64,000 nucleotides of DNA from NCBI GenBank assembly GCA_947184155.2, contig CAMXCT020001481.1, positions 86,254 through 150,253 of the forward strand. Reading direction: 5' to 3'. This stretch comes from Cladocopium goreaui. Taxonomy: Eukaryota; Sar; Dinophyceae; Suessiales; Symbiodiniaceae. How positions within the stretch are numbered: position 1 is the first letter of the stretch; the number at the start of each line of letters is the position of its first letter. Below, one piece after another: positions 2,901 to 64,000 of the stretch. The notes under the pieces were generated by a model. That model saw nothing but the letters and a program-made list of their open reading frames with translations. It did not search any database and was not told where the DNA came from. Made by a program: the position numbers and the translations under genes.

Positions 2901-3192
2901 TCTCCGGCAATCAATTGACAAGTCAGTCAAATGACCTTACAGCCAACATGCCACAAAAATGAAGTGAGACAAAAACACGTCACCTAAATCGAGAATACTC
3001 AAGCTCTTCGATGCCCTTGACTTTACAACAACAATGTACCAACCTAGTGATCACTTCAGAACCTTAGTACAAGCTCAACACAAATCCCTGCAGAAGATTC
3101 AGGAGCTCAATACAAACGATCTCAGCTTCACCTTAGATGGTGTCCTTAGCACACTGCAACAAGGGTCAGCGGAGGATGGTGTGGGTAGCTCC

Positions 3193-3209
3193 GTAGAGCT
3201 CCGCTACCA
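3193..3209 (-). promoter_or_regulatory. Primer-binding site of R1
   Basis: On the minus strand the base after the LTR terminus (TACA) begins TGGTAGCGGAGCTCTAC. It starts with TGG, as expected for a site complementary to a tRNA CCA end, and resembles initiator-Met-type sites (TGGTAGCAGAG...). The same 17 bases follow the R2 LTR at 16613-16629. A related TGGTAGCGGAGG follows the T-element LTR. Confidence 0.65.
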
Positions 3210-5436
3210 TGTAGAAAAAGCGCCGTGCACAGATCTGCGGTCAGATCAAACGCTTCTTCGAAATTCCTACAGAACTACGCAGCCGGACGCGTACGTCAAC
3301 CACGCACACCAAACACAAGCGCAGAGCGTAAATTCACAAACCTAATTAAACTAAAGCAATACCGTGTCAAAAGGATTGTTTCACCCTCGACTCCCACATG
3401 CTGACGTCAAGCTCCTTCTTTTCGCTCCAGACGCAACACGATCAGTCACGGGGAAACACAAACACAACAAACAAACAAAACCAACAAAAGGAGAAGAGAA
3501 AGCAGATGTGTTCCCTGTGTCGGTCTGTCTTATGTCAAGTTATGTGACACAGCAGCTCTTGTTCATTAAATGAACTTCTGACACCAGTCCTTCGAGCCGA
3601 TGTCTCAACTGGTAAACTCGATTGCAGGTTTCCAGTTAACAAACCTCAAGTTCTTCAAATAAAGGTTTGTTGAAACAATTCCAGCTGCTAGAAGTCTACA
3701 AAACTTAATTTTCACTAGATGAATTCAAAATCATCGAAACACTTCCAAAAGTTCTCACAGCAAACTGGTTCTCATCCAAACGTGAATAACCAGCTCATTA
3801 GTCACAAGCTGACTAATTTCTCAAGAACGAAGTGATTCACACAAGGTGTCTGTACAACCTTCTTCTGGATACAAAACATAGTCAGAACACAACGTTCCTT
3901 CTCCAAATCAGCTTTCCACATAGAGATAGCATCTCACAGCTTCAAATCTCAATGGAGAATAGAATGTTCTATTCGACATTGTCAATGTAGGTCAGCCAAA
4001 TACAGTTGTATCGCTGAAGTCTTTCGACCACTGTAATAGCCAATCCACAATGTAGACACGACTTTGGTCTCAAAGCAATGTCGTCCTCATAGAACGATAA
4101 AAATGCACACCATAAGATCAAGTGTACGATCCATAGGTCAAGATGACGATGATGTAGGTATTGTCCTCACAATACCGAAACATCTCATCACAAAACTCTC
4201 AGACAAATAAGATGCCCAAATATGGCCATTGTCTTCACAATACCAATGCATCTCATAGTCCAAACTCAAAGCATAGTAGGTTCTCTCCATCAGATATTTC
4301 CAGCTAGCTTAAACTCTTCTCCAAGAGTTTCTAGCTGTGTTCTCATTTTTTTTCCTCGAGTGTGGCCGATGTCGCGCTAAAGGCTCGGTCCTTACATGAG
4401 CATAAGCAGGAAAGACATTTGTACAAGGACATATAAAGTCCATTGAGGCGGCAAATCGATTAAAACAACACACAAAAAAAACAGCAGCCAACCAAACACG
4501 ACGACCCGCAAATCCCCCAGTCAGACTTGCGTTTCGCCAGCGGAAACAGCGAAGCAAACGGCAAAACACAAAAACAACACACAAAACGGGGCCAGAGCCC
4601 AAACAAAACACCCACAAAATCGATTTGCCATGGGACGCAGTGGCTTGTCCACTGCATCACTATCAAAAACGTGCCAATGAATTAGGGATCACGGCTTTCA
4701 GGCAGACATGAAGGCCTTAGCTTGTAAGTTTACTCTAGCATGAGCCAAGCTGTACAAGAAAGCAGGGCTACAAATTAAGCCTCTCTCAGTTTCTAGCTGT
4801 GTTCTCATCACTTGGAGAGAATAAACTTCACAGTGTTCACGACACAAGAAGTAATCTCAATGTCAAACCAATGTAGGTATCTTCAGTTCAAGCAATAAGC
4901 TGTACCAGACTCAAGTCGAATCCAGAATAAGATGTAGAACTGATCAATATACCACAATCAGTATTGACCTGATCAATGACATCATCCTGAGATGTCAGAA
5001 ACTGATAAGTCCAAAGACGAATAGAATATTGTGACAATGCCAATGCATCTCATAGTCCAAACTCAAAGCGTAGTAGCTCTCTCCATCAGGTACTTTCAGC
5101 TAGCTTAAACTCTTCTCCAAGAGTTTCTAGCCGTGTTCTCATCACTTGGAGAGAATAAACTTCACAGTGTCCACGACACAAGAAGTAATCTCAATGTCAA
5201 ACCAATGTAGGTATCTTCAGTTCAAGCAATAAGCTGTACCAGACTCAAGTCGAATCCAGAAAAAGATGTAGAACTGATCAATATACCTAATCAATGACAT
5301 CTCGGGATGTCAAAAACGATAAGTCCAAAGACCAATAGAATATGGTCACAATGCACAGGTTTCTTCCACAACAAATAGAATGTTCTCTACCAATCTTCCG
5401 CGCACAGAACTGTACCACTATGATCAAATTTCCATA
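3210..5436 (-). repeat. 5' LTR of R1 (minus strand)
   Basis: It matches, in inverted orientation, the LTRs at 15805-16612 and 35729-37219. On the minus strand it begins TATGGAAATTTG (5436) and ends TACA (3210), giving noncanonical TA...CA ends. It is longer than the 1491-bp copy because it contains a 441-bp retroposed fragment (4347-4787) plus its target duplication, and an internal tandem duplication of about 330 bp (4244 onward repeated from 5040). Its 5' outer flank on the minus strand is CTCTC. Confidence 0.75.
4347..4787 (-). mobile_element. Poly(A) retroposed fragment L1 (3' end shared with giant element G)
   Basis: This insertion reads on the minus strand and ends in an A run at 4347. 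It is flanked by a perfect 21-bp duplication (4326-4346 and 4788-4808, agtttctagctgtgttctcat). The uninterrupted target is present in the tandem duplicate of the same LTR at 5125-5145. About 330 bases at its 3' end align with the last bases of G (28965-29289); conserved blocks include gggggatttgcgggtcgt and gtaaggaccg. The long duplication plus A-tail points to target-primed reverse transcription. There is no ORF. It may be a SINE or a 5'-truncated fragment of a G-like element. Confidence 0.85.
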
Positions 5437-15804: not shown

Positions 15805-16612
15805 TATAGAAATTTGACTCCCTATGGGAGCATCCTTTGGATAAGGATGAAGCGACATGTCATTCATCATTGGTTGTGTAGTTTGTGCACAGAAGATACG
15901 TGGAAGGCTCTGCAAGAGTTCATCGCCATGGAAGACTGGTAGAGAACACTCTACTTATTGCGGAAGGAATCTTGTATGTGACCAACCTGTACGAGGACAA
16001 TGCCCATATTTTGAATCTTATTTGTCTGAGAGTTTTGTGATGAGATGTTTCGGTATTCATCATCGTCATCGTGACCTATGGATCATACACTTGATCTTAT
16101 GGTGTGCATTTTATCGTTCCTAAGACGACTTTGGTCTGCATTGTGGATTGGCTATTACAGTGGTCGAAAGACTTCAGCGATACAACTGTATTTGGCTGAC
16201 CCACATTGACAATGTTGAGAACATTCTATTCTACATGAGATTTGAAGCTGTGAGATGCTATCTCTGTGTGGAAAGCTGATTTGGAGAAGGAACGTTGTGT
16301 TCTGACTACAGTCGAGTATGTTTTGTATTCAGAAGAAGATTGTACAGATACCTTATGTGAATCACTTCGTTCTTGAGGAGGTAGTCAGGATCGTGTTGCG
16401 TCTGGAGCAAAAAGAAGAGACTTGACGTCAGCATGTGGGAGTCAAGGGTGAAACAATCCTTTTGATACGGTATTGCTTTAGTTTAATTAGATTTGTGAAT
16501 TTACGCTCTGCGCTTGTGTTTGGTGTGCGTGGTTGACGTATGCGTTTGCCTGTAGGAATTTTGAGGAAGCGTTAGATCTGATCGCAGATCTGTGCACGGC
16601 GCTTTTTTTACA
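15805..16612 (+). repeat. 5' LTR of R2 (internally deleted)
   Basis: It matches 35729-37219, starting TATAGAAATTTGAC and ending TACA, but is only 808 bp because of internal deletions, for example around 16050 and 16380. It is followed directly by the primer-binding site. Confidence 0.75.
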
Positions 16613-16629
16613 TGGTAGCGGAGCTCTAC
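16613..16629 (+). promoter_or_regulatory. Primer-binding site of R2, duplicated by the G insertion
   Basis: TGGTAGCGGAGCTCTAC follows the LTR. The same bases recur at 29291-29307 after the A-tail of G, so this site is also the target duplication of that insertion. Confidence 0.7.
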
Positions 16630-16636
16630 TTTGCTT

Positions 16637-16650
16637 GAGGCTGGTGCCTC
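16637..16650 (+). other. Hairpin at the 5' end of G
   Basis: GAGGC-TGGT-GCCTC is a perfect 5-bp stem with a four-base loop, seven bases inside the element. Confidence 0.45.
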
Positions 16651-17978
16651 GATGACACCCGTACAAGGAGCGCTACCACCCCTCTTCCTTGCTGTCCTTC
16701 ATCGGCACAGGACGTACAGCTGCTCCTAGACGCACAAGCGGACCCATGGCAGGAGATTCCAATTGCTTCCGTGCTTTGCCATTCATTGCAATGGCATGGT
16801 CACCAGAACGATTGCGAAATGAGCTGCAATCACCCCCAGAGCTCGACCGGGAAGCAACACTCCTGCACCAAATTGACTAGTTGTGTGCTCTAAGATGAAC
16901 CTTTTCCCAGTGAGAGGCTGGCACCAGGTCAAGGCTGTATTCCGGCCTATTTGAGATCCGAGAGAAAAATGAACGGGCAGCGCACACACAGTCGCATCTC
17001 TCAGTTGAACCATGATGTCCTTAAATATGCAAGCTTTGTGTGCTCAGCTACATTGCTACCGCTTCCGGCGTCTCATTGGCTCAGATGCAAAGCAGCAGAC
17101 AGACCAGCTGCCTCAGCATAGTTCCAGAAAAGGGAAATATAGAGCACCTCCTAACCTCGGGGAGGGATTCATATCACTAACCTTTCCGATTATCAGACAA
17201 GGGTTTTGCTACAGACTTGTTTTTTCACACCACAGTTTATTTCCTGATTTTTCGTGCATTAGGATCTTATTTCGCGATAGTGCCCCTTCTTGCGTTACAT
17301 CCCTTTACCTGACTCATCGTTCTCCGTCCCATTTGGCATCTGGTTTCTCTGGCCAAAGACGTGCCAGGGCTACCAGTGCCTCTTCCACCACCCTTCTCCC
17401 CCCCTCTGATTGGTTTGTGTGTGGTCTCTTCCTCTTTTGCTCTTTGGCTCGGTGTGCCTTGCTCCCTCCCTTTCTCTCTCTCCTTTTTTCTTGTTCACTC
17501 TTGTGCCTGGATTTTCTGACTAAAGACTGTCAGGGCTTCCAGCTTTTTTGTCCCTTTCCTTCCCCCCTGATTGCACCTTTCTCCCTCACTGCTACGTGCG
17601 CCGCCTGATTCGACTGCCGTGTATCAATTTGTGGGTTCGGGCGTTCTTGGTTTATCCTGTTTCGTGTCAAGGTGCTTAAACTGCCTGGCCAAAGACGTGC
17701 CAGGTTTTTCAACACTCGCCCCTTCCCCCCTTCTCTGTTGGTTTGTGTTGGTTGGGTCGGTGTCCGTTGTCTTTTTCTGTGTGTTGGTCTCTTTTTGTTT
17801 GCTTTTCTGTGTTGGTGGTCTTGCTGTGGGTCCTCCTTCTCTTCTTTGATTTTGCCATTCAATACTGACTGAAGTGCTTGAGTCTTCTGGCCAAAGACGT
17901 GTCAGGATTCTCAACACCTCCCCCCCACCCCACATTACCTTTACACCCTGAACAGCTACGTAGGAACTGCACAGTGCG
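16651..17978 (+). other. 5' untranslated region of G
   Basis: About 1.3 kb, pyrimidine-rich in its second half (C and T runs near 17380-17590), without a convincing gene. It contains the four stem-loops listed separately. Confidence 0.55.
17349..17905 (+). repeat. Four copies of a covarying stem-loop in the G 5' region
   Basis: Copies are at 17349-17367, 17516-17533, 17685-17703 and 17887-17905, spaced 167-202 bases. Each is CTGNC, a loop CAAAGACGT (TAAAGACT in the second), then GNCAG. The variable stem position pairs as G-C, A-T, G-C and G-T, so pairing is kept while bases change. Two further copies lie after the helicase ORF with a T-A pair. The loop is nearly invariant. Confidence 0.8.
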
Positions 17979-19538
17979 ATGTCTCTGCTTTCCAGAGAAC
18001 AAGTTGTGAAATCCTGGTATGCAAAGAACCCTAACGTCAGCTTCTTTGATTTGCTCTTTGCACTTGAACAGCATAAGAGCATTTCGACTGAGTATGGGCT
18101 GAATGTATCCATTGAGCAGCACTGGAGGCTTGGAGACCCCCATAAGAAGACCGCTGCACCAGATCGACATGACTATGAAATTGCAATGGTAGGTGGGAGA
18201 GAAACCTTACCTGGGCCTGACTGGCATAAGTTGTGCCGATGGTTGGTTAGTCAAAGCCCTGCTTTCTTGCCTTACCACACGGTATATTTGGTGACGGACA
18301 ATCGGGATTTGCAATCGGATAAGGTCAAGTCTGAGCCTGGACTCAGTCATTGGCCAATGGTCGCTGCTTGGTGGAAAGAACGGTTACGCTATGTCGGCCC
18401 ATATGGAGAACTCACCACAGTTGTCTTTGTCCACATTTCAGCTGACACTGGTCTCCATAAGGTACACCCGACATGGGCAGGGACGTACATCCTTGATGCG
18501 TGTGTGTTCCTCTTCCCGGCCATCAACTTTGCACTGATTGACAGCGATTGTGTGCCAGTGACTCTCTTTGAGATACGGGAACTTTGGCTGGCGAGCACTG
18601 ACCCAACCCATTCAGCTGCATCAAGCACAGTTGCAAAGAGCAAACTGTCAAGCCCCATTGCGTCATCGCACAAACGTGCGCGATCTGTGGACACGGGAAG
18701 GGACATGCAGCAGCCTGGTCCACCTTCGAAGCTGTCTAGATCGCATAGTGCGGACCATCTTGCTGTCCGAAAAGCAGATCCACTGCGAGCCCCTCCGTTC
18801 ACCTACGGTGCCAATTTGGCAGACGAAGTTGACTATGGTGATTCGCCAGACCCGAGTCCCCGAATGTCTCGTCGAGTGACGTCCAGCAGCGATGACTCTT
18901 CCCCGGCTGGGTCAGCTAAACCCACTCGGAAGGACAAAGTAGCCGTGGATGAAACTGCCACTGCGCCTAGGCCCAAAGGAGCCATCCTTGTGAGTGAGGC
19001 TTTCACTGAAATCAATGCTGGTCTGGTCATTGTATTAGCTTCGGGTCATGAGAGTCCTGTACCTGTTACTGTCTTGGAGGACCCAGACACAGATCCTGAC
19101 GAAATTGCCCGCGTTATTACCATTGCTTACCACAGACATGTCGAAGCCTACCTAGCTACTACATATCCACCTGCAGACGTCGAGCAAGCAGTCGCTAGTG
19201 GATTACTTGGCTCTCCTCTGCTTGGCACGTCCACACGTGTTACTGCAGATTGGTGCCATGCGTGGAGCTTGATAGGCCAGTGGTCTGGACTAGTTACTTT
19301 TCCTGTCCCAGCCTCTGGAGTCTGGCCGCGCCATGGTCATTTACGGAAGATCCTTGATGGCTACCAAGGCAGGCAACCAAACTTCCATAAATGGGCTAGG
19401 CCCGCCTACGAGCAAGGGGCCCTTCCGACCCTTAGCCTGCTGCCCGGTGAGGTCAGTGTACGAGTGCTACCAGGAGACAAGATGTACCAAGCCATAGCCC
19501 GGGCGGAGGTTGCGGCCCGCCAAGAGGCATGTGGGTAA
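17979..19538 (+). CDS. Glycosyltransferase-like protein (519 aa), ORF1 of G
   Basis: Residues 60-210 resemble the nucleotide-sugar-binding half of a glycosyltransferase. There is an acidic DxD-type motif in FALIDSDCVPVTLFE, preceded by a hydrophobic strand and a PTWAGTYILDA segment. Residues 210-340 are a low-complexity linker rich in Ser, Pro, Asp and basic residues (SSHKRARS). Residues 345-519 form a second ordered part with WARPAYEQGALPTL and VRVLPGDKMYQA, which looks like the acceptor side of a transferase. I see no signal peptide or membrane segment at the N terminus. It is the first of two ORFs in G and is intact. DxD motifs coordinate metal and sugar nucleotide in GT-A enzymes; the assignment rests on motif pattern only, and substrate is unknown. 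Confidence 0.6.
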   Translation: MSLLSREQVVKSWYAKNPNVSFFDLLFALEQHKSISTEYGLNVSIEQHWRLGDPHKKTAAPDRHDYEIAMVGGRETLPGPDWHKLCRWLVSQSPAFLPYHTVYLVTDNRDLQSDKVKSEPGLSHWPMVAAWWKERLRYVGPYGELTTVVFVHISADTGLHKVHPTWAGTYILDACVFLFPAINFALIDSDCVPVTLFEIRELWLASTDPTHSAASSTVAKSKLSSPIASSHKRARSVDTGRDMQQPGPPSKLSRSHSADHLAVRKADPLRAPPFTYGANLADEVDYGDSPDPSPRMSRRVTSSSDDSSPAGSAKPTRKDKVAVDETATAPRPKGAILVSEAFTEINAGLVIVLASGHESPVPVTVLEDPDTDPDEIARVITIAYHRHVEAYLATTYPPADVEQAVASGLLGSPLLGTSTRVTADWCHAWSLIGQWSGLVTFPVPASGVWPRHGHLRKILDGYQGRQPNFHKWARPAYEQGALPTLSLLPGEVSVRVLPGDKMYQAIARAEVAARQEACG

Positions 19539-20405
19539 GAGGGGGAGGTGGACCCGAGAGGGTCCGGGGGGACGTTAAACTGGTATATAGCGCAGGGGAG
19601 TTGCTGAAGGCCCCCGTCCCTAACGAACCGTGAACGGACACGGTACCTTCGTACCCCCTAGTCGGCGTGTGTTGACATGTTGGGTTGCTCCTCATGTCTC
19701 ACCCTCGTTTGTGTTTGCGCACATCCTTGGGTGATCGTGCGGTATCTCGGGGTTCTCCCGGACCGATCGGTACACACGTGGTACGGGACCGACGGGTCTC
19801 ACCTTACCTTGTGTCTAGGGTAGCAACACCCTATGATGACACGGGGGAACAGGCAAGGTCGGTGAACCTCTTAGAGACTTGGGGACTCGTCTCGAGGAGG
19901 GGTCAACGGGGCAACCCGTTGGCTAACGGTCAAAATTCATCGTGGGTAGCCAAGCTCACGGTGGACAAGACCGTCGGTTCCTCCCTAACAGTGTTAGGGT
20001 CCTGTTGTGAGACAGGTGTATCCCTCCGGGGATGCATGGGATCGCTAACGACTGGGTCACCGATCGGTCCATTCTCCTTTTGGAGGGTGGGCTCAATGTA
20101 CAGTCTGGCCACAGTAAGGACCTAATCCAAGGTTCGAGCTGTGCTCCATTGGGACTGGGGTCACTGAAAAGGTGACTTAGTTCGACCACTCCATTTTTGG
20201 TCGTTCTTCTCCTGTACGAGCAGGAGTCCGGGAACCAATGGGGGCATCGTGTGATGGCTTTACCTTCGGTGATTGTGGTGAACACCTTGTGTGGTGGTGG
20301 GTGTCCGTGTTCCACGTCCCTTGAGTGGTGATCATCTTGGGTGAAATGAATGGGTTCCTTTTTGGTTCCCACGTCACTCGGTGAGTGGATCCACTTGGGA
20401 AATGA
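19539..20405 (+). ncRNA. Hairpin-dense spacer between the two G ORFs (possible structured RNA)
   Basis: At least nine perfect local hairpins occur in about 680 bases. Examples are GGACCC-GAGA-GGGTCC (19550-19565), CCGTG/CACGG (19628-19643), TAGGGT/ACCCTA (19816-19833), CAACGGG-GCAA-CCCGTTG (19904-19921), CCCTAAC/GTTAGGG (19983-19999), GTCAC/GTGAC (20160-20176) and CTCCTG/CAGGAG (20209-20226). Two have GNRA tetraloops, typical of folded RNAs. No group I or group II intron core was recognised. An internal ribosome entry or processing element for the second ORF is conceivable. The region may extend to about 20600, because the first ~66 codons of the downstream frame look noncoding. Confidence 0.45.
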
Positions 20406-23400
20406 ATGGTCACGGTCACTTACCACCCGGTGTGTGGATCCACTTACCTTAGGTTGGCCTGGGTCACACGGTGTGGAAAGGTGTGCGCCGCCGGCTGCGC
20501 CTGGTGCTTGCGGAGGGCCGTGCTTCTGCGTGGTTTTCGCCTTTTTGGCGTGGCCCTGCACCGGGAGGCCAAAGCACACAAGCGGGCAATCGAGCCACAT
20601 TACATGCGGCCTGTTATCCTGCATGGATTTGGCACCAGTGCCAAGAAAAGAATGCCGAACAGTCTCGCTGACCTAGCCCAATTTGGCTGGTTGCCGCTGG
20701 CTGCTGCTTTATTTGGCACGCATGAATGGAAGCCCCAATGGCTACATCACAATTTCCTTCCAGTGGTTGGACCGCGGCTGCATGCCAAAGTGCCACCTCC
20801 TCCTCTCTCCCAAGCCCAACTCTCATGTACATCGCTGCAGCAAGCAGCTCTCCTGAAGTTTGGTCTTCCGTTACCTTTCCGAGAAATGGCTAAATGGGAA
20901 ATCACTGTCAATAAGCAGACTATAGATGTTGGAGAATTGTCCAAACAAAACTACATAGGAAGACAACCTGAAGCTGCGATGCCTGCTGCACTCAAGGACT
21001 CGGTTGACTGGGCATCCTGGGTCTTTTCCCTTGTAGAAGTCTGGCAAGATGACGCCCCAATGCAAGACCGACCCCTTGAAGTGCATTGCAGTGGATTAGG
21101 GGGTGGCCTGCTTAGTAGCGAACACGAATATGATATTTTCCTGCAAAATCTTGCGCAAACAAAGGTGTATGGCCCATCGCTTGCGATGACAGATAATTGG
21201 GAAGAACATATCACCCAATTGGGCCTTACCAAAACAGTGCACGAATATGCGGTATACCAGCTCCTTTCCACTGCTGATGGATGGACAGCTTGGCGTGATT
21301 TCCTCCCTGAACAGTTTTCTGATCCACAGCTGCTGCTCACGAGAGCGATCCGCCTCATTGAGGCCGCGACCATCCGGCCAGCCCACTCCAGGCCACCACA
21401 TCCGACCTGGTCAACAGCAATTATGCAGATCTTCCGTTGTTACCATCCACAAGGGAAACAGCTTTTTCTGAAGTCATGTTTTCCACACTTGGTCACTACA
21501 GCGGACAACAGAGGGAGCAGGGACATTAACGTGTATGGTTTCTCGGCAGGGTCCTATACGGGCTTAGCAGTCCACGAGATCCTGAGTGAATTTGCTGCGT
21601 TCCCTGGCCTCACTAAAGTTGCTGCGATTGCGACGCCGCCAGAGATGCTGCGACTTGCCACAGGCGAACGCAGAGTCACACTGGTGCACTGCCTGGAGGA
21701 CCGGCTATGTGTGTGGAGACCTGCTTCTCTGACAGAATTTAACTATCAGGTTGTTCTTATAGAGGGGCACCCCACCTGGAGTGGGCGTGCCAAACATTCC
21801 TATGGCCACTTGCTCTTCATTGACCTTGACGAAGGAGTCCACGAAATCCAGAGGCTACAAATCACCACCCCGCAAGTTATTCCACATGGGGTACGGTGCG
21901 AGGGATTGCTGCGTGTACTCTCATGGGTTAGCTTTGACCTTCCTGAGCACCTTAAGACGACTCTAAGTGATTTGTTAGTAGCAGCTGGAGAAGGGAACAC
22001 GGAGCTACAGAATATACCCATCGGTGGACGGGACATTCGGGATGGTCAGCCTGAAACGGAAGCTGACCTACAAGCAGTTCTGATTGCGATGATCCCCACA
22101 CCGGGAGGATCCCACGATGAGGGTGGGTTGCTGGTTCGCAACCTACTGGCGGAATTCCTGCGTGGGTTCTCATTACGAACCCTCATCTTCCTACTGGACA
22201 TGGTTCTTCCGCAACTAGACGCTTACCATGTGGGACGGCAGCTCCAGCATCTCCAGCCCTGGGTCAGTGTGGAACTTGCTCAGCAGAAGAAGCGAGGACA
22301 AACAGGAACACGTTTGCAGCTCACCTACCAATACGAGGCTTATGCTGGGTTTCATGTCGTTCACCTACATACTGATGGTGCCCCGCTCCTGCTCTTCAGT
22401 GCACCGTCGGATGTTCCAATGACCTCGCCGCGAGAACTTTGCGAGGCTGGGAATCTAGGCAACTTAGAAGCCAATGTGATGGCGGGCAGAGCATTACTGG
22501 GTGTCCTCCAGTTGCCAGACACTCAGCATCGGTGTGTCATATTACTTGTACATGAAAAGGTGATGTCTAGCGGAACCAGTAAGAACCCTGCTCAGCGAGC
22601 GATCAAGCGCATTGCCCCGAAGTTGCTGGAGGTCGTTATCGTCTCGCTACCCATTGCTCGGACCTTTTGTGGGCGGCTTTTGGACCAATATCTCAAAACA
22701 ATGAGTTACTTTGATCCTGCAAAGGACTGGCCGAAACCCATCGAAGACTACGTGTCCATGACCGTTGTATGGGAGGAGCTAGCTTTTCTGGGAGACACAC
22801 GCAGCCGCCATGAACTCTTAGTGTTTGCGCAGGCTAACCAGTCGCGCTTACCATTGGCAATGGGCATCGTGCAGCCGCATATACCTGTTCGCCGCATGGC
22901 CAGCGAGCGCAAAACGCAGCTGACGGATGCATTAGTCAGAATTTTGACACGGTTTTTGACACCAGCCACAATATCAATGGATGGGGCCCATGACAGTTAC
23001 TACTGTGAGTATCTCCTTCCTTTAGCAGCCCACGGTGATGGACATGTCTTGACAGTTTCCATTGCATTGTTACTGGCCATTCTGACAGGAAGATCTGACT
23101 TATGTATTGCCGGGGTTTTTGGTGCTGGCAAAACGCGGTCCCTTGCGGTCTTGCTCATTGCCCTGAGCTGCGAACTCAAGGAATTTGTTGCCATCATCTA
23201 TACGAAAGAAAATGTAGCTGCCAAAGCACTTGCGGATCAATTGAGTGATCTCGCGCCCCCCACAATCAAGAGCTTTGGTAGGCTAATTGGACGCATGGAG
23301 GAAGGCAAAGGTGAAGCATATGCCTCCAAGATTGACGTCCGATGCAGTGATCGCAATAGAATCATCGCTCACAAGAATGTCCTCATTGCAACAGGTGGCT

Positions 23401-26400
23401 CGGCCACGGCGGAAATGGCGATGCGCTACTCCAGCTTTGGTCATTGGATCTCTCGCACCTGGCTTGCCTTCATGGATGAAAGTCAACAGTATGGCAACTA
23501 CCATGAAATTGCAGCTCTCGCTGCTATTCAACAACCAACCCTTACTGTTTTCATTGGTGATCATAGGCAAACTCCAGGCGGATTGTCAAAAGGCCGAGCA
23601 GCGGCTGTCAATCGTCGCAAACTGTTGCAACGGCCGTTAGGGCTCCGAGCACTTGATAAGTCAGGAGACTATCTTCCGCCGGCACGAATGACAGCACTTA
23701 TAGCGCAGCTTTGGCCTGATGCGAGCCAAGATCCGGAGTCTGATCTCTTCAGTTTGCTGCGACTTGCAAATAAGTCGCATAGTGGCCCATGGACATCCAC
23801 TCCGCAAGACTACGAGCTGCCTGCTGCCCTGGGGCGTGTGTTTCACTGCCGAATCTCGTGCCAGCTGGACGCACACAGCAGCCTGGTTGCGGCAGCTCTA
23901 GCAGTCCTGCTAATTGCCACAGCACCAGAGGAATTGGGAGTACCTGAGTGCACCACAACCCTTGAGGCTGCAGGGTTATGTGGTCCTCACCGGTGGGGTA
24001 TCATTCTCCCTAACAGCTCACGGGTCTCAATGCTGACTTACCAAGCTATTGTTGCAGTTCGATATCCTGAGTTAGTCCTCCACGAGCCCAATCACATCTA
24101 CATTGGACACTTCGTGCCACATGAGTCCACTGTGGCACAAGGAGGCTTCCGGACAGTACTGTGGAAGGCACCTAAAGATCTAAGAGCTGCAGTCGAGGAC
24201 GTCGTTGCTTTCTGCACTTATCTGAAGAATTATTATCGCAACTTGCAACAGGGAGCGACCTCGCAGCTGCTTGTCCTATGCAATCGTACGGCGGTGCACA
24301 ACTTGCTGCTCCAACATGGCTTCCAGTCCGCGTGGTATGGTGGGCTGAGAGTCTCCACCACTTCCTCTGCCGCGGGGGCAACAGCACGCATTGCGGTCAT
24401 TGTTCAAACAGGCGTTGGGTTTCTAAGTGGAGGACGTCGGGATGCAACAGCAGATGAGCGCGAAGACTGCTATGGGAGAGCAACTGTAGCGCTCACAAGA
24501 GCCATTGAACATACCTATATTGTTTCGCCTCTTGATATGGCAGGCATGATTGGCATGGCTCAGACACTAGGAGTGTACCATTATGGCTACTTCACTCTGA
24601 AAGGCCGAGACATTCAGTACCATGGCCCTTCAAAATACCCCAGTGACAAAAGTGCCATACTGGACTGGGGATTAGTGGACCCATTTATTTCCCAAGATAA
24701 ACCTCCCCTTGCTATTGCCATGATAGTGACCACCAATGGCACGCGAGTGTGGCGACGATATCGGTTGGTTGTGGCATGCAGAGACAAGCTACGGCTACCC
24801 CCTGATGTCCTTGCAGCGTTAGAGTCCCGCACGCGTGATCATGTGCTGACGACCAGCGGGTTTTTCCCCTGCTCGATTGATCGGGAATACTTGTATGGTT
24901 ATGCTGCTGATGGGTACAGATCTCCTCTCTGGATCTGTGCAGCCTATAATGGGTCCCCAGCACTTGTTCATCGACATCGAGGCCACAAGGTCTTTTTTCA
25001 CGTGGGTATACAGGATCGGCAACTTGTCGTAATACCGGGTATCCACTACTTCGATGCCCATCGGTTGCAACCGGACCTCTTGGACACATTGGATCGCCGG
25101 ATTGATCCTGGGTCCATGAATTTTGCAAGCCCCGAGGGTGCAGGAGACACAGTGAATGACCCCTCCTCGGATGAGGAAGCGGCCTCTACCGATGACGAGA
25201 GTGACCCAGAGGACCCTACAGTTGCGTGGTGCCCACCTATACCTGATGCAGCTGAAGATCCTTCTGAAGATGAGATCGCGAGTGCAGCTGACAAGCTAGC
25301 AATCCTGATTACTAATGTCCAACCTAACGGAAACCCGTTTTGCATGCCTGAAAACCTTGGAGTTCTCCCACAGTTATGGCTACAGGCGAGATTGACGTTG
25401 TCATTGACTGCCATCCAAGAGAAGTTTTCGCGCATCTTGCTGAGTGTGGCCTGTGAACTGTGGTTGCGTGGACAAAGCGCCACAATGATAGAGGATGTCC
25501 TCCTGCAGACGGCAAGGGCTCTCACAATTCGTTTGGCAGAAAAGCTCGCCCAAGCGATGAGCTCGTTGATGAGATTGGCTGAATGCATGGTGACTCCAGA
25601 AACTGAATGCTTGCTGTATGCCACGTACTGGTTTCGGCCCATCCTGTCTGAGCTCATCGGCTCGGCCCTTGAGAGCTCTGAGGTGAACCGGAGTCGAGCG
25701 CCGAGTGGCCCAGTAAAAGTCCTGGTCACTGATCGGCCGCATCGACGAACTACTGGGCTAGTGGACCTTACGAGTGGTGCCTCTGCCCTATTGGCATGGT
25801 TCCCGGCTAGCTGGGCTAGCAAAATTGCTCCCAAACTTCTTGAGAATGCCCCTGAGAATGCGCAGAAACCACAAGAAATCAACATCGCATGCCCGAAACG
25901 TTCCTGTGACGAGACTCCAGTGGAAGGAGCAAAACAGCTGCTCCAAGCAGTAAAATTTGCTGCCAAAACCATGCCTGGTTTTCGTCTTGGACTGGATGAA
26001 GACTTTCAAATGGCTGGATGCTTCCAGGAGCTCATCCATGGATACACATCAGGGCTCGTTGAACCATCCATGATGCGAGGTCTCCAACCACTGGGACCGA
26101 CTCGCACTACTCTGGAAGTGATCATACCTTCTCAAGAAGGGCTTACACCTGAAAAATGGAAAGAAACAGCCACACTGTGCCCACTTGATTGGCCTTCCAA
26201 CTTCAGTCTGTTGCTATTGTGGCATACCAATGGGAGCCTGCATCAAACGGTAGCGCGACTCAGGAATCAACTGTCGCACAGCCATATGTTTGCTGAATGG
26301 ACAGTGCATATCAACAGATTTGCAGAGCGTGTTTTATTCCAGCAACCTGCAGTTTATGTAGCGGGACATGCCTTGCAAGCCAACTTGCGGGAACGAACCT

Positions 26401-26600
26401 TCCCAGACAGGAGAGTCCGCAAGAGGGTTCCTCCGGAAGATCTGGATGAACATCAACGGGCGATTCGAGCGCTACATCAGCGAGCTATTGCTCAGCAAGC
26501 AGCTAACCCAGTTTCGTTTGCACTCACCAATGAATGGAACGACACTATCACATCGGACAAGAAGCATCATTTGGAACATTTCATGAGAGGTACGACATGA
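20406..26600 (+). CDS. Alpha/beta-hydrolase-like and SF1 helicase fusion protein (2064 aa), ORF2 of G
   Basis: The frame is uninterrupted. I favour translation from the ATG at 20604 (residue 67, MRPVILHGFG) because the upstream codons overlap the hairpin-rich spacer and look noncoding. Near residues 375-390, VYGFSAGSYTGLAVHEIL is a GxSxG nucleophile elbow of alpha/beta hydrolases; an acid (LEDRL) and histidines (HSYGH) follow at plausible spacing. The helicase core begins near residue 898 with Walker A GVFGAGKT. Motif II follows at about 1020 (FMDESQQ), motif III at about 1050 (FIGDHRQTP) and motif VI at about 1360 (VALTRAIEHTYIV). The order and GDHRQ/ALTRA signatures are those of UPF1-like superfamily 1 helicases. 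An acidic stretch lies near 1580-1630, and the last 430 residues are unrecognised. A diverged copy is on the minus strand at 62612-52518, interrupted by D2. The protein may act on nucleic acid during the element's life cycle, but that is inference. Confidence 0.75.
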   Translation: MVTVTYHPVCGSTYLRLAWVTRCGKVCAAGCAWCLRRAVLLRGFRLFGVALHREAKAHKRAIEPHYMRPVILHGFGTSAKKRMPNSLADLAQFGWLPLAAALFGTHEWKPQWLHHNFLPVVGPRLHAKVPPPPLSQAQLSCTSLQQAALLKFGLPLPFREMAKWEITVNKQTIDVGELSKQNYIGRQPEAAMPAALKDSVDWASWVFSLVEVWQDDAPMQDRPLEVHCSGLGGGLLSSEHEYDIFLQNLAQTKVYGPSLAMTDNWEEHITQLGLTKTVHEYAVYQLLSTADGWTAWRDFLPEQFSDPQLLLTRAIRLIEAATIRPAHSRPPHPTWSTAIMQIFRCYHPQGKQLFLKSCFPHLVTTADNRGSRDINVYGFSAGSYTGLAVHEILSEFAAFPGLTKVAAIATPPEMLRLATGERRVTLVHCLEDRLCVWRPASLTEFNYQVVLIEGHPTWSGRAKHSYGHLLFIDLDEGVHEIQRLQITTPQVIPHGVRCEGLLRVLSWVSFDLPEHLKTTLSDLLVAAGEGNTELQNIPIGGRDIRDGQPETEADLQAVLIAMIPTPGGSHDEGGLLVRNLLAEFLRGFSLRTLIFLLDMVLPQLDAYHVGRQLQHLQPWVSVELAQQKKRGQTGTRLQLTYQYEAYAGFHVVHLHTDGAPLLLFSAPSDVPMTSPRELCEAGNLGNLEANVMAGRALLGVLQLPDTQHRCVILLVHEKVMSSGTSKNPAQRAIKRIAPKLLEVVIVSLPIARTFCGRLLDQYLKTMSYFDPAKDWPKPIEDYVSMTVVWEELAFLGDTRSRHELLVFAQANQSRLPLAMGIVQPHIPVRRMASERKTQLTDALVRILTRFLTPATISMDGAHDSYYCEYLLPLAAHGDGHVLTVSIALLLAILTGRSDLCIAGVFGAGKTRSLAVLLIALSCELKEFVAIIYTKENVAAKALADQLSDLAPPTIKSFGRLIGRMEEGKGEAYASKIDVRCSDRNRIIAHKNVLIATGGSATAEMAMRYSSFGHWISRTWLAFMDESQQYGNYHEIAALAAIQQPTLTVFIGDHRQTPGGLSKGRAAAVNRRKLLQRPLGLRALDKSGDYLPPARMTALIAQLWPDASQDPESDLFSLLRLANKSHSGPWTSTPQDYELPAALGRVFHCRISCQLDAHSSLVAAALAVLLIATAPEELGVPECTTTLEAAGLCGPHRWGIILPNSSRVSMLTYQAIVAVRYPELVLHEPNHIYIGHFVPHESTVAQGGFRTVLWKAPKDLRAAVEDVVAFCTYLKNYYRNLQQGATSQLLVLCNRTAVHNLLLQHGFQSAWYGGLRVSTTSSAAGATARIAVIVQTGVGFLSGGRRDATADEREDCYGRATVALTRAIEHTYIVSPLDMAGMIGMAQTLGVYHYGYFTLKGRDIQYHGPSKYPSDKSAILDWGLVDPFISQDKPPLAIAMIVTTNGTRVWRRYRLVVACRDKLRLPPDVLAALESRTRDHVLTTSGFFPCSIDREYLYGYAADGYRSPLWICAAYNGSPALVHRHRGHKVFFHVGIQDRQLVVIPGIHYFDAHRLQPDLLDTLDRRIDPGSMNFASPEGAGDTVNDPSSDEEAASTDDESDPEDPTVAWCPPIPDAAEDPSEDEIASAADKLAILITNVQPNGNPFCMPENLGVLPQLWLQARLTLSLTAIQEKFSRILLSVACELWLRGQSATMIEDVLLQTARALTIRLAEKLAQAMSSLMRLAECMVTPETECLLYATYWFRPILSELIGSALESSEVNRSRAPSGPVKVLVTDRPHRRTTGLVDLTSGASALLAWFPASWASKIAPKLLENAPENAQKPQEINIACPKRSCDETPVEGAKQLLQAVKFAAKTMPGFRLGLDEDFQMAGCFQELIHGYTSGLVEPSMMRGLQPLGPTRTTLEVIIPSQEGLTPEKWKETATLCPLDWPSNFSLLLLWHTNGSLHQTVARLRNQLSHSHMFAEWTVHINRFAERVLFQQPAVYVAGHALQANLRERTFPDRRVRKRVPPEDLDEHQRAIRALHQRAIAQQAANPVSFALTNEWNDTITSDKKHHLEHFMRGTT

Positions 26601-28964
26601 TCCCTCCAACACCTTCTCCCATCTTTTCCCTATTTGTGTCCACCTTGTCTCTTCTTTCCCCCGTGTCTCATTTCTGTTTCACTCCGCTTTGTCCTTCATA
26701 CAACATTGGCTTTTGTTTCATCAGCAACGGAAGTGGGAGTTTACTTCAATCACTATTGGGTCTTTCGTCATTTCTACTTCAGGTTACTGTCCATACTGGT
26801 GTGTCTGTCCAAAGACGTGACAGGTGCATTGGTATGCAGTCGGGGACACAGCTCTTCCTCATTTATAATTGTCAGGTTCCTCATGACCCATGCCTGGGAG
26901 GCTACTTCCACACTGGTGTGTCTGTCCAAAGACGTGACAGGTGCACTGGTATGCAGTAGGTGACACAGCTTTTCCTCATTCATACTTATCAAAAATGTTC
27001 TATCACATGCCTGGCCCCTACTGATTCAGACCTCCAACAGCCAGTATCCACACTCATGTGTTTTCATGTGGGAGTGATAGCCTAGGCATAACAAGCCGAG
27101 CAGCATGCTTTCCCCTTGCACTAGTGCTTAGAATGAGTTGTCCAGCCGAGAGCTTAGATTATACTAAGGCCTCCTCACACCATGAAGCCCACTGCATTAG
27201 TGCATGCTCTCGTACCCGGTGCCTGACAATCATAGGTGATGATGTAACTGGTTTCGCTTTCCCCTGACATAATACTGACGAGACTACCCCTCTCTTACCC
27301 TTCCCACTAGCTAAGGTACGTGAATTCATCGTTTTACCCATAGTTGATGCAATGTGCAGAGCTACAGTAGGCGTAGTGCCTCGGTTGGTGATTCTTTTCT
27401 GGTTGTTTGTTTGGTCCCTGCCTGCCGTAGCCCTCCCTCCCCCTCGGATGGTCCTCGTTGGCGCCTTGGTCCAGGTTTTACTGGTCCCTCCCTCTGGGTA
27501 TCGTTGCTTCCGGCGACGGCCTGGTTGCCGTGCCTCTGCGCGTGGAGTGTTTGTTGCATGGCAACAAAGGCCTTGGCCCTGTGTGGGGATCTTTCCCTCT
27601 ACACCATGCTTCATGTGTTGTTGGGGTGCTGTGTGCTCCCTCACTGAGGTATTCATCACTGTATGATCCTTGTCCCCTTCCTGGACTCCGCTAAGACACG
27701 TTCGTACCCCTTCTAGTGCGTGTGTGTCCTTTCTCTCTCTGTCCTCTGCTGCCTCCTGGCTCCTCTCCTCTTTTCCTCTGGTGGCTTGTTGTCTTGCATG
27801 GGTTGTACTTTGGCCGCTCCCCCCTCTTTGCTTCCCCCTTGATGGCAGGCTTCATTTCGGTTTGGCGTGTATTGTATTTGCTTCCTCTGTTGCCTGGATA
27901 CCGAGGCTCCAGCTCTGCACAGTCACCCATTGTTTCACCATGGTTACATTGATCTTATCCGGTAGTGACTAAGGATTTATCCGAGGTGGGACAGCTTTTG
28001 CTCACCGTCCCCCCCCCTTTTTTTTGGTTGAGTTGATCCCCTGTTGAATTCGTTTGCTTGTTCTTTTGTTTGTGTTGAATTTGTCTGGTGGCTTCCTCTT
28101 TGGCTGTATTGGGATGGGCCCTTCTCTCTCTGTGTTTTGTTTCCTGGGTGTTACCTTGAGGGGCGGTAGATTCCCGGTAGAGCCATGGACTAGGCTGCAC
28201 TGCAGTGAGCTCTACTGGCGCTGTCCAGTTGTGCTTCCTGCAGTTCAGTCTGGAGCGCCCGAGTGCAGCAAAGCCTGCCCACATGGTTCGTTGTGCGGAT
28301 TTTCTGTATTGCTATGACCTATGGCCCACTCGATGGGAGAGTGGCTTTGTCTGGAATATACAGATGCCTTCCTGTGCATCCGGTCCTCTCCGCAGAACTT
28401 GCTGGGACGATGACGCCTAGTGACTCCTGTCTGAGTATCTGGTGCTGGCGCACCGAACCACCTTTTCTTTGATTGTTTTAGTGCACAAGACTTACAGCAA
28501 TGCGAATGCAACTTTGTCGATCTACCTGCAGTATCATACTGGAAGTGCTCACGAGCCCATGTTATAGTCGAAACATCATTTGTCTGTCATGGCCGTACTG
28601 AGCCGGTCAGGCCTTTAGCCACTTTTTCACCCACGGCCTTAGGGTCTTGGGCACAATCACGTGACGGTTTCTGCAAGTGCTTACCATGTTGCAGGCTGTC
28701 TGTGCTCTCCTCCCCGTTTTGGGGGGGAAATAGATTACAGTCCCTTGCGGTGGTGTATACTGACAGGAACAGACTGCCTGGCATACGCTGGACAATACAG
28801 GGTGAACAGCAGAGATGCGGAAGTTTACTTATTGACAAATCGTCCATACAGGCGGCCTTTGTCGACCCACACATCAGTCTGCCTACAATGATGGACTCCC
28901 TTTGCTGTTCTCAGGTAAGACGGTCTGGGCAATCAGGTACAACACTTCGTGCACCGCCGCAATT
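26601..28964 (+). other. 3' untranslated region of G
   Basis: About 2.4 kb without a recognisable gene. Several open frames of 60-110 codons overlap one another on both strands and show no domain. It is T-rich near 27700-28060 and contains the stem-loop repeat described next. Confidence 0.5.
26793..26985 (+). repeat. Two tandem units with the G stem-loop
   Basis: A 117-bp-period duplication contains CTGTC-CAAAGACGT-GACAG at 26805-26823 and 26922-26940. The stem differs from the 5' copies by a paired change (G-C to T-A) and the loop is identical. Confidence 0.85.
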
Positions 28965-29289
28965 AATTAGTTTGCATGTTTTTGATGATGATACAGTGGC
29001 TAAGGTCGCTGTATCCAAGGCAAATCTGAGAATTTTTTGTGTTGGTTCTTGTTGGGCCCTGCCCCTTTCTTTGTTGCTTCGCTGTCTTGCTTTGTGGCGA
29101 AACGCAAATCTGGCTGGGGGATTTGCGGGTCGTTTTTTGGTTGTGGTTCTTGTTGTTTGGTTGGTTTCTCATGATGATTTGCCTGAGATTTTTGGACCAC
29201 ACGAGTCCTGTACACTACTGCTTTTCACTGCTTACGCAATTGTAAGGACCGTGCCTAGTGCGAATCGGCCAAACCGGAAGGAAAAAAAA
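28965..29289 (+). repeat. 3' tail of G shared with fragments L1 and L2
   Basis: About 320 bases align with the minus-strand copies at 4347-4690 and 14667-15010. Shared blocks include tttttgatgatgatacagtgg, ctgggggatttgcgggtcgt and gtaaggaccg. It ends in A9. A shared 3' end among copies of different length is what reverse transcription starting at the RNA 3' end gives. Confidence 0.8.
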
Positions 29290-29344
29290 ATGGTAGCGGA
29301 GCTCTACGGAGCTACCAACACCATTCTTCGCTGACCCTTGTTGG

Positions 29345-61466: not shown

Positions 61467-62612
61467 ATATATAGTTATCTTGGCCAGGGGCCATGGATCA
61501 GGCAACGTGGATAGGCAATGCAATAGCTCGGATGTCAGCTCTGGTGCAATTACTGGGAGCTCTCCTTCCTTTGGGCGATATTGCATGGTTGCTGTTGCGC
61601 TGCTTTTGCTGCGTTGCGTGTGGGTCTTGGCGGCTTGATGTGCTGACTGGATGAGGGGGCCATGTTGGTTGACCATGGCTCTCAAATACTTACATGCACG
61701 GATGGCTGCTCTACGAGTGCTGGGCCCGTCTTCAGTTTGGTTCTTGGCAGCGGTAGCGAGGATGTCGCGCGCCTCTTCCTCCGGTGAGCGGGGTGGTTCT
61801 GCGCTGGTAGGGCTGTGTGCGGGGGCTGCAACTCCACATATTGGTGCCTCTTTTGTGCTTGGTAGGTCGGCGGGGATAACCAATGTTGGATGTATTCGCC
61901 ACCCATCAAAGAAGTAAATGCCCGGTAGCGGTGTGATTTCTTGGTCAGGGCCGGATTGTGCTAGTACCCGCCCGGCACGTGCGTTGTACAATCCAGAAGG
62001 TAGGCACACGTATGTAGGGCGATTCGTGCGGTCGGCGGCGTATGCATACAAAATGGTTTCATTGTAATGAAGTTGCTGTGCCGGGATCCACTTATGGCCG
62101 GCTCTTGCGTGTGCTTGAATGTCCTTGAGTCGGTCTCCTTTCAGCCAGTCGAGGTCAGACGCTCGTACTAAAATGAGTCTGTATCGTACGCTTTTTGGCT
62201 GGTTGGTTTGGTGGTCGTGATATTTGTTGGCGATTGCCAGGGGGGGATACGACCATGAAGGCACTGTGTTCAAAGACCATCTTCTTATTTGTTCAAGGTT
62301 TTCTTGTTCCGGATTGGCATTGAACTTTGGCCAGTCCCAGGTGGTTTCTCCTCTTCTAAGGCCTTGGATGCCATAGGCGATCGTTGCAACCACCTGAGCC
62401 ATTCCGATGAGTCCCATCATGTCAAGCGGGGAAACCAACAGAGTCAAGGATTTCGATCGTGTGAGTCCAACCGTGATGCGGCCTAAGCAGTCTTCGGTGT
62501 CTTCCGTTGGTGATCCATCTGGGTAGAACCTTGTGTTGAGGAATCCTGTACTTGGCTGGGCCACTATTGCAACTTCTGCCGTGCCTCCTGCTGAGTTAGC
62601 AATGGTTTCTAC
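61467..62612 (-). pseudogene. Middle part of second G-type helicase gene (upstream of D2)
   Basis: The minus-strand frame reads GGTAEVAIVAQPSTGFLNTR, then LGRITVGLTRSKSLTLLVSP (helicase motif VI), LDMMGLIGMAQVV, PPLAIANKYHDH, and ILYAYAADRTNRPTYVCLPSGLY with LPGIYFFDGWRIHP. These align in order with residues ~1320-1570 of the G protein (VALTRAIEHTYIVSPLDMAG; LYGYAADGYRSPLWICAAYN; IPGIHYFDAHRLQP). Walker A and B are absent, because the gene is cut at 62612 by the minisatellite. The frame is open up to D2, so the D2 insertion is not an ancient event. Confidence 0.8.
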
Positions 62613-63786
62613 ATGGCATGGTGGAAGGCAAGGGGGAAATTTAAATAAAGAGTTGGAATTTAGATCAGGCATTGTGGAAGGCAAGGGGGGAATTGAAGAG
62701 TTCGATTTTAGATCATGCCATTGTGGAAGGCAAGAGTGGAACTATAAATAAAGAGTTAGATTTTAGATCATGGCATTGTGGAAGGCAAGGGAGGGGAAAG
62801 TTCATAAAAAGTCAGATTTTGATCATAAGACCATGGCATTGTGGAAGGCAAGGGGGGGAAGTGTAAATAAAGAGCTGGAATTTAGATCATGGCATTGTGG
62901 AAGGCAAGCGGGAGGAAGTTCAAATAAAGAGTTAGATTTTGCATCATGGCATTGTGGAAGGCAGGGGGGGAAGTTCAAATAAAGAGTTGGAATTTAGATC
63001 ATGGCATTGTGGAAGGCAAGGGGGGAAACCGATGCTGGGGGCAGTGTTGTGGAGGCAAAGGAGAACTAAATTCAGATCATGGCATTGTGGAAGGCAGGGG
63101 GATGAAATTTAAACAAAGAGTTGGAATTTAGATCATGGCATTGTGGAAGGCAAGGAGGGAAGTTTAAATAAAGAGTTAGATTTTAGATCATGGCATTGTG
63201 GAAGGCAGGGGGATGAAATTGAAACAAAGAGTTGGAATTTAGATCATGGCATTGTGGAAGGCAAGCGGGGGGAAGTTTTACGTTAGATTTTAGACCATGG
63301 CATGGTGGAAGGCAAGGGGGAAATTTAAATAAAGAGTTGGAATTTAGATCAGGCATTGTGGAAGGCAAGGGGGGAACTGAAGAGTTCGATTTTAGATCAT
63401 GCCATTGTGGAAGGCAAGAGTGGAACTATAAATAGAGAGTTAGATTTTAGATCATGGCATTGTGGAAGGCAAGGGAGGGGAAAGTTCATAATAAGTCAGA
63501 TTTTGATCAAAGTTTTAAAATAAAGAGTTTGATTTAAGACCATGGCATTGTGGAAGGCAAGGGGGGGAAGTGTAAATAAAGAGTTGGAATTTAGATCATG
63601 GCATTGTGGAAGGCAAGCGGGAGGAAGTTTAAATAAAGAGTTAGATTTTGCATCATGGCATTGTGGAAGGCAGGGGGGAAGTTCAAATAAAGAGTTGGAA
63701 TTTAGATCATGGCATTGTGGAAGGCAAGGGGGGGAAGTTGAAATAAAGAGTTAGAATTTAGATCATGGCATTGTGGAAGGCAGGAG
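62612..63786. repeat. Minisatellite of about 20 units of ~55 bp
   Basis: The unit contains catggcattgtggaaggcaa, a G run, and taaataaagagttggaattt. Units 62612-62905 recur at 63297-63600, giving a higher-order period of 685 bp. Frames of 60-70 codons here follow from the repeat and are not genes. Confidence 0.9.
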
Positions 63787-63806
63787 GGGGGGAGGGGAGG
63801 GGGGGT
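63784..63806 (+). other. G-run cluster with quadruplex potential
   Basis: Three closely spaced G runs of 4-7 bases, plus shorter ones, link the minisatellite to the palindromic block. Confidence 0.6.
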
Positions 63807-63817
63807 GAACGAGGAAC

Positions 63818-64000
63818 CGAAGCCCCCTTAAGGTACCTTAAGGGGGCTTCGAAGGCTTCGAAGGTATCTTAAGGGGGCTTCGAAGCCTTCGAAGGTACCT
63901 TAAGGGGGCTTCGACGAAGGTACCTTAAGGGGTCTTCGCCGAAGGCTTCGAAGGTATCTTAAGCGGGCTTGGACGAATTCTTCGAAGCTCCCTTAAGGAA
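63818..64000. repeat. Palindromic repeat block
   Basis: 63818-63851 is a perfect 34-bp palindrome centred on GGTACC, with arms CCTTAAGGGGGCTTCG. Variants with GGTACC or GGTATC, CTTAAG and TTCGAA follow to the window edge, about 40 bp per unit. Each unit is itself self-complementary. Confidence 0.85.

Follow-up and report, generated by a model that had tools for sequence, protein, structure and literature searches.

Non-LTR retrotransposons (LINEs) are usually 4–10 kb long. The closest element described to date is SymbioLINE-Dnmt, which, in the portion of the published account used here, has a DNMT ORF and an endonuclease-RT-RNase H ORF, is associated with duplications and lacks poly-A tails (PMC5890265). 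Much larger retroelements are known as Terminons, giant Penelope-like elements of rotifers that reach up to 40 kb; the relevant part of the transposon review in which they are treated lists LTR elements, Terminons, Helitrons and Polintons as giants, and non-LTR elements appear in that part only for the transduction of up to 3 kb (PMC6431247). Additionally, dinoflagellate retrogenes carry DinoSL relicts at their 5′ end, sometimes several in tandem, and the DinoSL itself is given in the sections consulted as DCCGUAGCCAUUUUGGCUCAAG (PMC6050394).

Here, we describe a segment of 12,660 bp within the window (the whole stretch of 64,000 nucleotides that was analysed), which is very probably a 5′-truncated and since-damaged copy of a dinoflagellate non-LTR (LINE) retrotransposon of about 34 kb. 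We judge this giant, polycistronic, spliced-leader-tagged LINE to be a new form within a known kind of element, its polyprotein being without a match in the literature searched. The features of the window copy and the main ORFs of the reference copy, C3290, are collected in Table 1.

Table 1. Features of the window copy and of the reference copy C3290 (the reference coordinate x is obtained by subtracting the contig position from 513509; the element starts at x = 914).
Feature	Sequence	Position	Strand	Remarks
Empty site, related repeat	Window	3157..3443	-	91% identical to joined flanks
Left 18-bp target-site duplication	Window	16612..16629	+	Identical to 29290-29307
Giant LINE copy, very probably 5′-truncated, 12,660 bp	Window	16630..29289	+	Start = ~23040 of reference C3290
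Remnant of the 437-codon ORF (372 from first Met) cut by the truncation	Window	16630..16880	+	
Polyprotein, N-terminal part	Window	17979..19498	+	GT-like motif (DSDCVP) at about 18525-18548
Secondary insertion, 1,086 bp, splitting the polyprotein	Window	19499..20584		
Polyprotein, remainder and stop	Window	20585..26600	+	Hydrolase-like fold ~21051-21860, helicase ~22995-24623
3′ untranslated region	Window	26601..29281	+	117-bp tandem repeat at 26781-27014
A-tail, A8 (A9 with first duplication base)	Window	29282..29289	+	
Right 18-bp target-site duplication	Window	29290..29307	+	Identical to 16612-16629
First of two uncharacterised ORFs	C3290	2165-3286		374 codons stop to stop, 369 from first Met
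Second of two uncharacterised ORFs	C3290	3262-5001		580 codons stop to stop, 537 from first Met
Methyltransferase-like ORF (cytosine type)	C3290	5005-8979		1,325 codons
Endonuclease-like + RT + RNase H-like ORF	C3290	8983-15063		2,027 codons

The marks of insertion that had been predicted for this segment were recovered. Comparison within the window places the same 18-mer, ATGGTAGCGGAGCTCTAC, at both edges, exactly as proposed, and the chance of an identical 18-mer in one fixed register is about 1.5e-11. The A9 tail expected at the right edge consists of eight A and the first base of the duplication. When the two flanks are joined, they align without a break to positions 3443-3157 of the minus strand (91% over 287 columns), where a related repeat holds a single copy of the target, as an empty site should. 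Target-primed reverse transcription, the insertion process put forward in the original prediction, is supported by these results.

The copy had also been regarded as full-length and, for want of an RT, as belonging to no known class, and neither statement was borne out. The genome (1.166 Gb in 6,202 contigs, the window being on contig C1481) was searched for other copies, and 19 regions were fetched around their expected 5′ edge. Nine of them span window position 16628, and in eight of these nine the same sequence runs on upstream of the window copy's 5′ edge. The ninth (C5965, L029) breaks off at the very base at which the window copy does and has a different flank, and by eye no duplication was seen at its break; of the other ten regions, some begin at different points of the element and the rest lack any match within 2 kb of where the edge was expected. 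The edge itself falls inside the 437-codon ORF of C3290, and four copies (C3290, C3591, C2984 and C1842) agree at 98.7-99.9% over 9.7-10 kb further upstream. The longer copies begin about 22 kb upstream of the point at which the window copy starts. An RT ORF in longer relatives, the search for which had been suggested in the original prediction, was found in the same genome upstream of the truncation point, and this decided the question: truncation accounts for the lack of both the RT and the DinoSL relict in the window copy. A retroposon truly devoid of an RT, mobilised in trans and with a fixed 5′ end at 16628-16630, would agree with the clean duplication and A-tail of the window copy and with the recurrence of its break base between other flanks in C5965, but we consider it very unlikely, as nearly all spanning copies continue past that point, which lies within an ORF of the longer copies, and as C5965 lacks a visible duplication there.

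Three copies of the complete element were measured, at 33,748 bp (C3290), 34,283 bp (C2984) and 33,991 bp (C1979), the last two being read without their polyprotein part. For a further long copy, C3591, both tips were read, as was the stretch that starts at reference position 8426 and stops no more than 560 bp short of the end; its 5′ half contains foreign inserts. The RT ORF of C3290 matches Pfam RVT_1 (8.1e-10, 39.2 bits, cut-off 29.6). Exo_endo_phos is found at the right position in this ORF at 0.0042 and 17.3 bits, under the curated 24.5, RVT_3 reaches 0.02, which is below the cut-off, and group II intron RTs are weakly matched in NCBIfam (1.6e-6). HMM support for the methyltransferase-like ORF of C3290 is weak, at 0.21 with Pfam DNA_methylase, below the cut-off, and at 0.0021 with NCBIfam dcm, far below the cut-off of that model. 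Relatives of this part number 79 at E <= 0.001, and in the query and the 17 of them that were aligned the motifs SPC(QDL), ENAG and (CGN)SF(HP), which we take to be the methyltransferase catalytic motifs, are invariant or nearly so; DNA_methylase is matched at 0.01 or better by 3 of these 18 sequences (best 7.4e-4), C3290 itself not being among them. Behind the RT ORF, the smaller ORFs of C3290 include those of 284, 258, 429 and 437 codons, the 429-codon ORF being broken in C3591.

The long copies have both ends in common, the 5′ end being formed by spliced-leader relics and the 3′ end by an A-run. With a 3-kb probe from the far 5′ side of C3290, at least 29 other loci start in one piece at probe positions 905-924, which marks a shared 5′ end; the best 40 of 2,304 candidates were scored. 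All 17 of the 5′ ends that were read (C3290, C2984 and 15 others) begin with a DinoSL relic, which in eight cases is exactly TCCGTAGCCTTTGGCTCAAG, two bases short of the published DinoSL. Behind this first relic there is a more decayed one, TTTTCGGTTCAAG, in 16 of the 17, and C583 and C1316 carry additional tandem relics. Such relics at the element's ends point to a dinoflagellate as host. As the same two-base deficit recurs, the relic was, to judge from these sequences, probably inherited within the element or derived from a variant of the host leader. C3290 (L060) has two occurrences of the string CTGTCCAAAGACGTGACAG, which could form a hairpin, in its 5′ part ahead of the ORFs, at about 1240-1400 of the reference; the string is also part of the consensus of the 117-bp tandem repeat in the 3′ untranslated region, and a variant lies near window 17345. 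Its presence in the 5′ and 3′ parts makes a shared RNA signal possible. No Rfam match was obtained within the window.

At the other end, a search with the 3′ end of the segment gave at least 42 matches, and 40 of the 42 listed (the best 40 of 1,429 having been considered) reach query position 1290, equivalent to window 29289, or beyond. The 3′ end is followed by A6-A12 in 25 loci, corresponding to 24 distinct copies, with a pattern that demanded at least four A, and one internal 3′ end, in C2438, is without an A-run. In C2438 (L033, L056), polyprotein and 3′-end pieces stand in the same orientation directly before another copy, and the earlier 3′ end passes straight into sequence that is found upstream of the window copy's 5′ edge in long copies. 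Twenty 3′ flanks were fetched, of which 17 are distinct; C4699, C1458 and C725 have one flank in common, as do C383 and C2984, and such contigs are presumably duplicated or allelic. It had been anticipated that each copy would have its own target duplication, and this held in three of the 11 copies tested, namely the window copy and the full-length C2984 and C1979, in which GATAGGGGGGCCCGGTTG and GTATGCAATTGTGGCAAT, respectively, stand on both sides, both of the same 18-bp length as in the window copy. In the other eight it was not found, namely in C3290, C3591, C3335, C6015, C1946, C748, C3323 and, by eye, C5965. For C4922 and C2004, no 3′ end was found at the expected positions. Nested insertions (e.g., in C1946 and C3591) may explain part of the missing duplications. 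The apparent break of C1946 is such an insertion and not an end of the element: from about 356.8 kb to 391.3 kb, some 34 kb of other sequence interrupts the copy, with a 10-base overlap at the break, and this insert is possibly another giant element.

The large ORFs of the window copy are best understood by comparison with C3591, in which they correspond to one intact ORF of 2,533 codons (2,524 from the first Met). The two large ORFs that had been predicted, at 17979-19538 and 20406-26600, do exist, but they are not separate genes, being one ORF split by the secondary insertion, a part of which (20335-20574) resembles sequence beside copy C3323. Additionally, about 280 bp of other copies are missing from the window copy at ~16803; in the parts compared with C3591 no further stop has been gained. 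Another copy, C748, has two stops in its polyprotein. Elsewhere in the window, ten further ORFs of 219-760 codons lie at 33119-62684, none with a Pfam match at 0.01, and tandem arrays of 55-59-bp and 31-34-bp repeats occupy its right end (62612-63998).

The polyprotein comprises a GT-like motif, an alpha/beta-hydrolase-like fold and a UPF1/Dna2-like helicase. For the helicase half, Foldseek ranks Dna2 (E 9.5e-8) and Upf1 (3.3e-6) among its best matches, and the sequence has a Walker A motif, DESQQ, GDHRQTPGG and VALTRA, presumably the set of an SF1 helicase. The helicase and hydrolase readings of the original prediction are supported, and the GT-like reading stands on sequence motifs. No Pfam family exceeded its cut-off in the members scanned. 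Viral_helicase1 was matched weakly (0.018), which, together with the large ORF and the A-tail, would also fit a viral origin of the segment, either from an RNA virus of the plus-strand type that became endogenised or from part of a large DNA virus. Such an origin is extremely improbable, as the long copies combine an RVT_1 reverse transcriptase with a spliced-leader start, the ORFs scanned with Pfam yielded no viral polymerase or capsid match, and the best Foldseek ranks of the helicase half include cellular proteins. The polyprotein of the giant LINE has 48 relatives (P0003-P0050), with identity down to 27% and clusters of up to 2,345 members, and their number, divergence and cluster size make it an old, highly repeated family. 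Three copies, on C3156, C1582 and C2984 (L023, L026, L028), have other polyprotein-like sequence at their flanks (94%, 90% and 78% identical, respectively); therefore, these elements insert into one another.

Differences among copies are concentrated on third codon positions, both in the polyprotein (91 of 132, five copies against C3591) and in the RT ORF (41 of 63, four copies against C3290). At the level of sequence comparison, this bias indicates selection within the family.

The linkage of the RT half with the polyprotein half was followed with a 3.1-kb probe covering the end of the RT ORF and the sequence that follows, the best 40 of 369 candidates being considered. In 33 of these 40 matches the whole probe is covered; of the seven partial ones, two (C5672, C2721) run to the end of a contig and one (C1946) meets the nested insert. 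Of the 30 5′-end loci listed, 17 sit upstream of an RT match on the same strand, and 13 of these 17 do so at 12.90-12.97 kb, against an expected 12.965 kb (C3290, the source of the probe, included). Seven of the 40 listed RT matches are upstream of one of the 38 listed 3′ ends. For five of these the distance is 20.8-22.9 kb, where 20.8 kb was expected, and for the remaining two it is 29.0 kb (C1635) and 55.6 kb (C1946). As each list comprised at most 40 entries, a locus missing from one carries no information. Outside this genome, P0008, which is related to the polyprotein, and P0054, which is related to the methyltransferase-like ORF, each lie on a contig of 167,993 bases in another assembly. 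The linked copies belong to one family, with 92-100% identity over the RT-end probe, which would also be expected if a shorter LINE of the SymbioLINE-Dnmt type had captured the polyprotein by read-through (3′ transduction), the 34-kb unit being then a single recent subfamily. The published SymbioLINE-Dnmt, with only DNMT and RT ORFs in the available part of its description, points in the same direction (PMC5890265). Against this explanation, which we regard as unlikely, are the 48 relatives, which speak for the age of the polyprotein alone, their adjacency to an RT not being implied, and the third-position bias, which speaks for selection within the family and likewise implies no adjacency to an RT in divergent relatives. 

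With the giant LINE as the preferred reading, its mobilisation can be envisaged as follows. One very long RNA would be transcribed, bearing a spliced leader as well as a poly(A) tail. Once the endonuclease had nicked the target, the RT would prime there on the A-tail; the duplication would come from a further nick at a distance of 18 bp, and an early stop of synthesis would produce truncated copies such as that of the window. The helicase of the polyprotein probably aids the RT through the 34-kb template or, otherwise, remodels the RNA-protein particle. Copying of an RNA of 34 kb by a LINE would represent a new size for target-primed reverse transcription, with a processivity that needs explaining and that the helicase may supply. 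Additionally, tandem spliced-leader relics can serve to count rounds of retroposition, and the 18-bp duplication with an A-tail is a signature by which to ask whether retrogenes of dinoflagellates stem from the same machine. Many unnamed genes may also be parts of such elements, given the 48 relatives of the polyprotein, whose clusters reach 2,345 members, and given that none of the members scanned scored above the cut-off of any Pfam family. It is tempting to go further and propose a lineage of giant, polycistronic, spliced-leader-tagged LINEs of about 34 kb in which the GT-hydrolase-helicase polyprotein, of some 2.5 kilo-residues, functions within the transposition particle and in which the endonuclease-RT, acting on A-tailed, spliced-leader-capped RNA and leaving 18-bp duplications, is the candidate machine behind the massive retroposition of dinoflagellate mRNAs; we offer this tentatively, as a proposal that is more likely to fail than to hold.

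Among known systems, SymbioLINE-Dnmt is the closest to the giant LINE when the two are compared by description. Both are dinoflagellate LINEs with target-site duplications, and in both a DNMT-like ORF is directly upstream of the RT ORF, which in SymbioLINE-Dnmt also has endonuclease and RNase H and in the giant LINE has stretches resembling these. By contrast, the 3′ end of the giant LINE has A-runs, and, relative to SymbioLINE-Dnmt as described in the part of the source used, it also has spliced-leader relics at its start, two ORFs ahead of the DNMT-like ORF and, following the RT ORF, several smaller ORFs together with the polyprotein of 2,524 codons; its length is 34 kb. We do not claim membership of SymbioLINE-Dnmt, because its lack of poly-A tails is not shared. 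As for Terminons, likewise compared by description, the parallel would be one of style: these too, in the portion of the review available, are giant retroelements with accessory enzymes (including esterases/lipases) and truncated copies. The giant LINE differs from them in the endonuclease-like stretch of its RT ORF, in its A-run 3′ end and in its possible 18-bp duplications; instead of a Terminon-type telomeric 3′ end with a hammerhead motif, an A-run was found at sites inside contigs, and no Rfam match in the window. The 5′ spliced-leader relicts are shared with DinoSL-tagged retrogenes, from which the giant LINE is distinguished by encoding its own RT and by its length of ~34 kb, and the helicase of the polyprotein resembles, by Foldseek and motifs, those of the UPF1/Dna2/Sen1 type. 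Finally, of the properties expected of a LINE, an RVT_1 RT (C3290), 18-bp duplications (3 of 11), a common A-tailed 3′ end and 5′ truncation were found, the endonuclease-like stretch of the RT ORF scored below its curated cut-off, and within this kind the element is unusually large.
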